A stretch of 63,813 nt of DNA from an uncultured Prochlorococcus sp. GTDB lineage: Bacteria; Cyanobacteriota; Cyanobacteriia; PCC-6307; Cyanobiaceae. The notes below the pieces were generated by a model. The model saw only the letters and a list, made by a program, of their open reading frames with translations. It had not been told where the DNA came from and did not search any database. Both the position numbers and the translations under genes were made by a program. Below are positions 41,848-49,925 of the stretch, one piece after another. Position 1 is the first letter of the stretch. Each line of letters begins with the position of its first letter. The DNA is taken from assembly GCA_902534675.1 (NCBI GenBank), contig CACAQQ010000002.1, positions 1-63,813 on the forward strand, given 5' to 3'.

Positions 41848-43161
41848 TTATTGGAGTTTATAAACTGCTAAATCTTTTGATTTACTTTCACCTAGTGCAA
41901 TCTTTTCAATTTTTTCTAATCTTGCCATCAAGATAGAAAGTTTATTCTCTAATTTTTGATTTTTGGAAAGTATTGTTTTGTTTTTCTTTTCAAGTGATTC
42001 AATTTTTGTCTCCATTACTTTTTTATCTTTCATAGAAATTTGAGTAGGTTTATTTAATTCACCTAATTTAAAAACAAATCCTGTTTTAATGACCCCATTG
42101 TCTAAAGTTCCTTCACCATAAGATTTAGACCCACCGAAAACATATGAGCCACCTGCATTTATATCAACTCTTTCATTAACTTTTGAAGCACATCCAAAAC
42201 CTAATGCATATCTACTGCTATACGCACCTGTGCCAACACCACAACTTAATTTAGATTCTTTTGATGTCTGAGGTAAGGCAGATAATGCTGCTGTAAGTGC
42301 TGTTGAACCTGCAACTCCTTCCCCAAGATTTTTAATATTAGATGAATTGGTTGAAATATTTGAGGTATTAGTAGAAATATCATTTTTGTTCGTTGTAACT
42401 TGTGCGCTATCTCCTGCTGTAACTTCTACTCCATCAATTAATAATTTACTTCCATCAATATTTATTGGGATTTTATTACCATCAGCATCTTGTGCATAAA
42501 GAGGTTGAACTTTTCTTCCATCGCTTAATGTTTGTTCCTCAACTGTTGTTATCAAAGAGTTTTTACCAAAATGAATGGTATTGTCTGATTGATTATATGT
42601 AATAAGTGGATAATCTTTGACACTTAATCCAGTATCTGTGAGATCTACTTCATATCCATCTAATCCTATTTGAATAGTTCCATCTGAATTTTTTGTAATT
42701 AATGCTTCTCCATCAATAATGAACCCATCTTCAACAATTTCCAATTTATCGCCAGAAAGTTTAATTTTCCCTTTGCCTGTGCCAACATTCACACTATTAT
42801 CTGATGTAATTATTTTTTCTCTAGGTATTACCTTATCGTAATTTGTAGCAAAGTCTGTTATTTGATCGACGGTTTCATCTGATATGTTGTATCTATAAAC
42901 TGTCCCTCTATCGTGAACAATGATATTATTTTCGCCGTCAACATAATGTTTTGCAATATCATCACTAGAAGAACCATTGTTTCCTATTGCTTTTTTTAAA
43001 GTACAACTATTTGTTTTGGCTATACATTGATAGATATGTATCCCCTGAAATCCATCAATTCTGTCGTTTTTTACTGCCCAATAATCCCACTCTGCTCGTG
43101 CTGGCATTGCTCCAAAAAACAATGACATGCCAAAGAAAGATAATGAAATTAATTTTTTCAT
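41848..43161 (-). CDS. Exported YadA-like (trimeric autotransporter-like) protein A
   Basis: Signal peptide ending PARA; NISTNTSN heptads; GAYSSRYALGFGCASKVNERVDINAGGSYVFGG anchor-like domain; C-terminal coiled coil. Confidence 0.75.
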   Translation of the reverse strand: MKKLISLSFFGMSLFFGAMPARAEWDYWAVKNDRIDGFQGIHIYQCIAKTNSCTLKKAIGNNGSSSDDIAKHYVDGENNIIVHDRGTVYRYNISDETVDQITDFATNYDKVIPREKIITSDNSVNVGTGKGKIKLSGDKLEIVEDGFIIDGEALITKNSDGTIQIGLDGYEVDLTDTGLSVKDYPLITYNQSDNTIHFGKNSLITTVEEQTLSDGRKVQPLYAQDADGNKIPINIDGSKLLIDGVEVTAGDSAQVTTNKNDISTNTSNISTNSSNIKNLGEGVAGSTALTAALSALPQTSKESKLSCGVGTGAYSSRYALGFGCASKVNERVDINAGGSYVFGGSKSYGEGTLDNGVIKTGFVFKLGELNKPTQISMKDKKVMETKIESLEKKNKTILSKNQKLENKLSILMARLEKIEKIALGESKSKDLAVYKLQ

Positions 43162-43523: not shown

Positions 43524-43698
43524 TTAAACATATCCGTTAACTATGGTTGGATAATCTTTGTTTTTGAACATTTTTCTATAATCATCATGCAATCTTTCAG
43601 TTGCTAATATTCTTTTTTTCATTGCATCTCTAATTAAATCCATCTCATTTAATTTTTGATTGAGAATGGAGAATGGAGAATGGAGTAGTTAGTTTCAT
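43524..43698 (-). pseudogene. Small ORF out of frame at a (GAATGGA)3 repeat; intact if 2 copies
   Basis: GGAGGttttATG start; reading frame shifts at the repeat; removing one 7-nt unit gives a 55-aa ORF. Confidence 0.55.
43664..43684. repeat. Heptanucleotide tandem repeat (GAATGGA)3
   Basis: Direct reading: tga GAATGGA GAATGGA GAATGGA gtag. Confidence 0.95.
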
Positions 43699-43739
43699 AA
43701 AACCTCCTTTTTTATTAATAAAGACTAAAAATTAATAAC

Positions 43740-43922
43740 TCAGTCGCAGTAAATTAAACAATTTTGATTTGTTGGATGTTCTCTACATTCTTTCTCCCAA
43801 AAGTTTTGAAACTCAGGGGTGCATTTTCCAAGTTCTTTTGGGGTTTCGTTTAGATTTAATCCTGCATAATTAAACGCAGTTAAGTATCTTGGAAGAATGT
43901 TAAATTGATTAAATAGTTTCAT
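43740..43922 (-). CDS. Small protein with CP12-like C-terminal motif
   Basis: 60 aa; ends ECREHPTNQNCLIYCD = C-x3-P-x4-C-x2-Y-x-D; GGAGGtcttATG start context. Confidence 0.65.
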   Translation of the reverse strand: MKLFNQFNILPRYLTAFNYAGLNLNETPKELGKCTPEFQNFWEKECREHPTNQNCLIYCD

Positions 43923-43958
43923 AAGACCTCCTAGATCTATATCTATATTGTCCTCCTA

Positions 43959-43987
43959 TTGACTTGAAATTCATAGAGTATTATTAC
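43959..43987 (+). promoter_or_regulatory. Sigma70-type promoter candidate for small RNA
   Basis: TTGACT - 17 bp - TATTAC. Confidence 0.6.
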
Positions 43988-43992
43988 CCTAG

Positions 43993-44141
43993 TAGAAGTG
44001 CTTTGTGGTTGTCACGACTATCTTTTCTCCTTCAGTAGGAGTAGAAATAATTCAAGAGTCAAAAGCACTTCATCGACTTTGTGGACAGCGAGGTGCATAC
44101 GACTCGAAGAGGGCAAACAAATGCCCTCTTATTTTATTTTT
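43993..44141 (+). ncRNA. Structured small RNA candidate with intrinsic terminator
   Basis: 10-bp closing stem GAAGTGCTTT/AAAGCACTTC; inner CTCC/GGAG hairpin; terminator AAGAGGGCA-aacaaa-TGCCCTCTT-attttattttt. Confidence 0.7.
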
Positions 44142-45222: not shown

Positions 45223-45284
45223 TTTATTAAAGTTATCACTCAGATATTGATTTAATTTAGACTTGTTTCAGAAAGCATTTTTTG

Positions 45285-45350
45285 TTTTCTTACAGTTTTC
45301 TTACATTTTTCTTACAGTTTTCTTACAGTTTTCTTACATTTTGCTTACGG
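45285..45350. repeat. Six tandem 11-bp units, TTTTCTTACAG/T
   Basis: Units begin at 45285, 45296, 45307, 45318, 45329, 45340 (last degenerate: TTTGCTTACGG). Confidence 0.95.
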
Positions 45351-45572
45351 TTGCAAATTAGAAATTTAGTAATAACTAAATTTTTAATTTCTACTTACAC
45401 TTTGCTTATTATTGTATTGACTTAAAAAAAGTCAGTTATTGCAGTCAATTATTAGTGATTATCTTTGTATAGAAATGCATAGAGATTATATGACTTAGTT
45501 AAGATCAATTGCAAGGTAGGGGATTTTAGCACTTTTAACAATTCATAAACCGGTAATAAATCAGTGAATTAA

Positions 45573-47105
45573 TTATTGGAGTTTATAAACTACTAAATCT
45601 TTTGATTTAAGATCTCCAAGTGCTATTTTTTCAAGTCTTTCTAATCTTGCTAAGAGTTCAAATTTTTCATTTTCAAATTTTGTAATTTTTTTATTTAGAT
45701 TTTTATTTTCGCTTTTTAGGTCAGTTATTTCATTAGTAAGTTTTTGTTTATCTTTCATACTTATTTCAACTGGTTTATTCAATTCACCCAATTTAAAGAC
45801 AAATCCCGCTTTAATAACCCTATTGCCTAAAGAGTCTGCTCCATAAGATTTAGAACCACCAAATACATATGATCCTCCTGCATTAATATCTACTCTTTCG
45901 CTTACTTTCGATGCACATCCAAAACCTAATGCATATCTACTGCTATACGCACCTGTGCCAACACCACAACTTAATTTAGATTCTTTTGATGTTTGTGGTA
46001 AGGCAGATAATGCTGCTGTAAGTGCTGTTGAACCTGCAACTCCTTCCCCAAGATTTTTAATATTAGAAGAATTGGTTTTAATATTAGAAGAATTGGTTGA
46101 AATATTGGAGGTATTAGTGGAAATATTAGAAGCATTGTCATCAATTTGTCCTTGGACACTTGTACCATTTATCAAAAGGTCTGAGCCGTAGATATTAAGT
46201 GGAATTTTTGTATTATTATCATCCTCTGCCCATAAGTGGTGGACTTTTCTCCCGTCACTTAATGTTGAGTGATCTTCGGGCGTGATTAATGAGTTTTTAC
46301 CGATATGAATATTACCGTCTGCTTGCTTGGTAATCATTGGATTACCATCTATACTCAGTCCTTGAGAAGTAATGTCAATATCATTTCCATCCGCTCCAAT
46401 CTGGATGGATCCATCAGAATTTTTAGTAAAAATGGCTTCACCATTTATATTCAATCCGTCTGCTACTACATCAACATCATTCCCATCGGCACCAATTTGA
46501 ACTGAACCATCACTATTATTTTTTACTAAAGTTGAACTATTAGTTCCGCCTGTGCTTATTCCATCATCATCTATTCTTATAAGTTCTTCTGTACCAGAAC
46601 CACCAAGTGAGATGAATTTAGTATCAGTTGCACCACAAGAAGCACTAGTTGTATTACATTTTTTATCTGCAAGATTTTCCATCTTTACAGGTATATCAAT
46701 AAACATTGGACTTCCAGAACCAGGCAGATTAGTGATATTTGTAAATCCTTCGAATGCATTCGTCTCCATATCAAATACCCTTATTCTCCTCTGTTCAATT
46801 CCATTTCTTGGTGGTTCTAAAAAATATATTTTTCCAGTTTGCTGATTAACAGTATAGTCAGTTGCACTAAATGAATTTTCCACGGAGTCTGGAAAAATAT
46901 TTGATATTATGATGCTTGCCTCTCCATCAGATTTTAGTTTGTAAAGGTGGACTTGTTTGTTACCGTTATTTAAAAGTTCTGAAGAAACGAAATATCCTAA
47001 GTCTGATGTTGCAGTTGAAACTTCTCCAGCCAATGAAGATAAGGGTGTTATTAATAAAGTTGAACTGAATAATGAAGTAAATATTTTTTTGAGTGGTCTT
47101 CTCAT
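45573..47105 (-). CDS. Exported YadA-like (trimeric autotransporter-like) protein B
   Basis: Signal-like N-terminus; repeated SDGSxQIGADGNDxD units; NISTNTSN heptads; anchor-like domain and C-terminal coiled coil shared with 41848-43161. Confidence 0.75.
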   Translation of the reverse strand: MRRPLKKIFTSLFSSTLLITPLSSLAGEVSTATSDLGYFVSSELLNNGNKQVHLYKLKSDGEASIIISNIFPDSVENSFSATDYTVNQQTGKIYFLEPPRNGIEQRRIRVFDMETNAFEGFTNITNLPGSGSPMFIDIPVKMENLADKKCNTTSASCGATDTKFISLGGSGTEELIRIDDDGISTGGTNSSTLVKNNSDGSVQIGADGNDVDVVADGLNINGEAIFTKNSDGSIQIGADGNDIDITSQGLSIDGNPMITKQADGNIHIGKNSLITPEDHSTLSDGRKVHHLWAEDDNNTKIPLNIYGSDLLINGTSVQGQIDDNASNISTNTSNISTNSSNIKTNSSNIKNLGEGVAGSTALTAALSALPQTSKESKLSCGVGTGAYSSRYALGFGCASKVSERVDINAGGSYVFGGSKSYGADSLGNRVIKAGFVFKLGELNKPVEISMKDKQKLTNEITDLKSENKNLNKKITKFENEKFELLARLERLEKIALGDLKSKDLVVYKLQ

Positions 47106-49629: not shown

Positions 49630-49925
49630 AAGTGGAGTCCTTCCAGACTCCGCGTATCATTTGGTTGATAAGGCTGATATAACCCCATCTCCTTTAAGAT
49701 CAAGCAGCAACTGGTGCTGTTTGACGGGAGAAACTAACGATTTTGTTAGCGTTTGTGTTTTTGCTCTAACCGAGCCGGCTTCAGTCACCTTCCTTATGCC
49801 CCGTCGAAACCATTACAACCCCAAATAGTGGAGTTGAGCGGAATCGAACCGCTGTCCGAAACATCGGTTGAGATCACCTAGTCCAATTGGACATTTATAT
49901 TCTGACAGGCAAAATGAGTATTGAA
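49630..49925 (-). ncRNA. ssrA: Permuted two-piece tmRNA (ends approximate)
   Basis: Minus strand: acceptor piece ...GCGGTTCGATTCCGCTCAACTCCAC precedes GGGGTTGTAATGGTTTCGACGGGG; tag ORF ANKIVSFSRQTAPVAA-stop at 49750-49700. Confidence 0.93.

Follow-up and report, generated by a model that had tools for sequence, protein, structure and literature searches.

The window analysed here is a stretch of 63,813 nucleotides from an uncultured Prochlorococcus, and a small gene on its minus strand (43698 to 43524) is most probably one copy of a conserved multicopy small-protein gene that was disabled recently, by an ordinary one-off mutation. A 17-codon ORF beginning GGAGGttttATG opens at 43698, directly behind an SD-like AGGAGGTTTT that ends at 43699, and MKLTTPFSILHSQSKIK ends at a TGA at 43647-43645; one base past this stop the ATG at 43643 opens a second frame, MDLIRDAM...NGYV, which runs for 39 codons to 43524 with no additional lesion. 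Deleting one 7-bp unit of a repeat in the first ORF fuses the two into a single 55-aa protein. An earlier sequence-only reading of this DNA had the sequence and the coordinates of both frames right, and the single 55-aa ORF that it reconstructed by removing one unit is a real protein family, since the intact orthologues it had proposed looking for are found at the same locus and confirm the gene. The features of the locus are as follows.

43699 to 43708, minus strand: SD-like AGGAGGTTTT leader of the broken gene (sequence; the same leader stands ahead of open orthologues)
43645 to 43698, minus strand: 17-codon ORF MKLTTPFSILHSQSKIK-stop, the 5' part of the 55-aa gene and then the wrong frame (sequence, orthologue comparison)
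43662 to 43685, minus strand: perfect heptamer array, CCATTCT on this strand, 3 full units and 3 bases, one unit above relatives
43524 to 43643, minus strand: 39-codon ORF, the rest of the 55-aa gene (sequence, family match)
43740 to 43922, minus strand: intact 60-aa small ORF MKLFNQFNILPRY...KECREHPTNQNCLIYCD, directly upstream, with a similar N-terminus and SD (sequence, shared loci)
43915 to 44141, minus strand: conserved leader of ~227 nt with a predicted fold, common to many small MKL ORFs

Of 266 Prochlorococcus genomes searched, 92 contain a match to the 55-aa reading at a cut-off of E <= 1e-5, and named records that carry the family include MIT 9107, MIT 9314 and MIT 9201, together with many single cells. 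A wider search of 400 genomes drawn from the bacterial family gave 41 matches within the genus and one marginal match outside it (E 0.009), so that among the genomes drawn the protein is essentially confined to Prochlorococcus. The downstream frame gives a 96% match over residues 3-55, with the nearest orthologue 93% identical, and the family consensus can be read in the window as an N-terminal MKL.TPFTIL followed by E.D.IRDAM and ATERLHDDYRKM; the N-terminal residues MKL.T.F..L are invariant in the family alignment. The window gene has the sequence of this MKLTTPFTIL family, as well as its locus and its upstream partner, and departs from it in the open frame, which is lost to the additional 7 bp. 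All 15 orthologues that share flanking sequence with the window (L127-L141) are open, and the upstream 60-aa ORF is also present at these loci. Over the 45 codons 3' of the array the pairwise pN/pS of the 15 orthologues is 0.23, and they are evolving under purifying selection. Neither the 55-aa protein nor the 60-aa protein encoded upstream could be placed with confidence in a family by Pfam, PHROGs, NCBIfam or PADLOC, the best hit of a PDB profile search had an E of 0.34, and no relatives were found in viral contigs and phage records. The AlphaFold2 model of the 55-aa protein is one long helix covering residues 6-45 (mean pLDDT 76, pTM 0.38), a shape too simple for fold comparison to be informative.

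In keeping with the loss of one copy here, the family as a whole is often broken. Repeats and lesions were compared in 122 distinct family copies, the window included, and a copy was classed as broken when a good start was missing or no ORF reached 43 codons; 16 of the 122 fall in this class, the window among them. The other broken copies carry start-codon changes, nonsense codons and 1-nt indels, lesions that have nothing to do with the heptamer. A paralogue, L124 (G524:C5), has a 12-bp tandem duplication near the site of the window array and a stop ahead. This variety of lesions, taken with the L124 duplication, fits a dispensable multicopy family that is decaying.

The likely origin of the lesion can be read from the closest orthologue, that of MIT 9107 (L127), which is in frame, with ACTACTCCATTCACCATTCTCAAT, and which aligns to the window gene without indels other than the 7 bp. 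This alignment and the open orthologues at the same locus bear out the view that the break in the frame comes down to a single 7-bp unit. The window also differs from MIT 9107 in the first array unit, with T in place of A, and in having 3 bp duplicated upstream of the SD. We infer that an A to T change on the minus strand (ACC to TCC) would first have perfected the pair CCATTCA CCATTCT, an imperfect repeat that encodes PFTIL, and that replication slippage or tandem duplication would then have inserted one unit; substitution before slippage is the simplest order. After about ten codons the frame is lost and a stop follows at codon 18; the 55-aa protein is thus not made, and its function has presumably gone with it. 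Reversal through the loss of one unit is possible, as in any short tandem repeat, and the lack of any further lesion in the gene is also what a reversible state, or an error in sequencing, would give. Spontaneous frameshift hotspots occur at short tandem repeats such as the three CTGG units of E. coli lacI and the three 6-bp units of mutL. The window array resembles these in the gain of one unit in a coding repeat of two or three units and in being reversible in principle, whereas here the unit is a heptamer, the gene an uncharacterised small one and the allele known from a single genome.

The array itself (43662-43685) is perfect, with a period of 7 and 3.4 copies, and no other perfect repeat in the window with a unit of 5-12 bp reaches three copies; no period-7 array arose in 60 dinucleotide shuffles of the window. 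Another 350 kb of Prochlorococcus DNA from elsewhere yielded five comparable arrays, one of them a heptamer, which makes such arrays uncommon, though not unique. The three-unit 21-mer is found in one of the 266 genomes, that of the window, and outside this genome the perfect pair CCATTCTCCATTCTC (15-mer) occurs only in G452, in frame and in a paralogue. Within the first 60 nt of the gene, the longest stretch with a perfect period of 7 measures 9-13 nt, the two exceptions among the 122 copies being the window with 24 nt and L044 with 17 nt, the latter in frame. Relatives carry an imperfect pair, which in the closest reads CCATTCA CCATTCT, and never three units. The earlier statement that two or five units would keep the frame is correct as arithmetic, but each of the relatives has just one imperfect pair, and alleles of five units did not turn up. 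Nine stretches of viral contigs match the array 24-mer, the start pattern of the gene being present in none.

It was on this repeat that the sequence-only reading had founded its suggestion of slipped-strand phase variation, in which frequent gain and loss of 7 bp would turn the 55-aa protein on at two units and off at three; on the comparisons made here this is highly improbable. The number of units does set the frame of a real gene, the array is placed as in a typical switch, close to the 5' end of a coding sequence that is under purifying selection, and a single unit restores the frame with the remainder of the gene intact. However, the unit number is constant in the rest of the 122 copies, three units are confined to the window genome among the 266 searched, and the count in related genomes that had been put forward as a check thus came out against switching. 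Nor has the tract been maintained in the lineage, where relatives have an imperfect pair and one other genome the perfect one, and other copies are broken by unrelated lesions. We found no report of slipped-strand phase variation in Prochlorococcus in the open-access literature.

Short repeats do switch in other bacteria, for example the TTTA tetranucleotide of icaC in S. aureus, which is likewise a short coding tandem repeat with the frame set by the number of units; in icaC reversal has been shown, ~9% of sequenced isolates vary and so do ~140 of ~88,000 reads (PMC4117637), whereas here the relatives are constant in a comparison of genomes rather than reads. In a survey of H. influenzae the minimum for calling a heptamer repeat was three units, which the window array just reaches, and strain Rd had 126 two-unit heptamers and no three-unit ones (PMC2651432). 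The clear heptanucleotide switches of that species, hmw1A and hmw2A, share the unit length with the window, but they lie in promoters, had 13-38 copies in the strains read and recur across strains (PMC2651432), as against three copies, in coding sequence, seen once. That the heptamer is a working switch for an island-type small protein in this lineage would accordingly be a long shot, and its use as a switch is unproven and unlikely.

The alternatives that the earlier reading allowed for, an assembly error or a fixed pseudogene, agree with the data better than the switch does, and of these two the disabled gene is preferred. It is unlikely, though less so than switching, that the living cell had two units and that the third arose as an error during amplification, sequencing or assembly. 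With 819 kb in 56 contigs the genome is 53% complete, which suggests an amplified single-cell genome, and the three-unit state has been observed once. Against this, the 24-bp array is much shorter than ordinary reads, and its length should assemble correctly; moreover the errors of phi29 amplification are mainly chimeras and not 7-bp duplications. If the assembly does derive from one cell, mixed reads would be of little use for measuring switching. A 39-aa C-terminal piece might also arise from the disabled gene by re-initiation at the ATG of TGA-G-ATG, one base past the stop, and Met17 is present in most aligned orthologues; that this piece is a functional protein and the frameshifted allele still works is the least probable reading of all, as the internal ATG has no SD and the product would lose the invariant N-terminus.

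Directly ahead of the disabled gene, the 60-aa ORF is its probable first cistron, with a start, MKL..F.IL, that resembles it. This ORF and others at L126, L142, L149, L155 and L187 have a common N-terminus, MKL.TPFT.L, and differing C-termini, among which a motif with spaced cysteines, W.KEC..HPT...C.(I/V)Y, recurs; they look like a mosaic small-protein family that has no Pfam entry. In the Prochlorococcus loci fetched, the leader at 43915-44141 recurs at 68-98% identity ahead of numerous distinct small MKL... ORFs, and 36 of the 60 genomes searched with surrounding DNA match part of the region. Its predicted fold is more stable than that of shuffles (z = -3.9), and a terminator-like hairpin closes it on the plus strand (44107-44130), so that an antisense RNA could make up part of it. 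The Rfam search gave no match above a family's gathering score, and RNAalifold gave weak covariation, with two-sided changes in 4 of 18 pairs and an energy of -6.8. By eye, and uncounted, pairing seems to be retained with both arms changed (GCACCTC/GAAGTGC, GCACTC/GAGTGC and GAACTTC/GAAGTTC) in a hairpin around columns 55-92 of alignment A1. Genome G152 we take to be MED4. Identity with a published MED4 non-coding RNA was considered and rejected, as the copies in G152 lie off Yfr20 and the other listed RNAs (PMC2518516). The region is a candidate for an unnamed regulatory leader or antisense RNA.

The small-gene locus is flanked by two minus-strand genes (41848-43161 and 45573-47105) whose products have a YadA-like membrane anchor (Pfam PF03895, E about 1e-8), are trimeric-autotransporter-like and are near-identical in sequence around the anchors. 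An 11-bp tandem repeat, GTTTTCTTACA, with 6.3 copies (TRF) at 45284-45352, separates the small-ORF cluster from the second of these genes, and a cyanobacterial tmRNA is found at 49635-49908 on the minus strand (Rfam RF01851, 297 bits).

Were the heptamer to switch, we would know of no earlier case of repeat-mediated phase variation in Prochlorococcus. Taken alone, the locus is an example of the decay of a small gene through a short tandem duplication. It also points to a neighbouring conserved leader that has a predicted structure and no Rfam entry, which we rate as more interesting than the frameshift, and to an unnamed family, present in roughly one in three of the Prochlorococcus genomes searched, that is under purifying selection and yet frequently lost.
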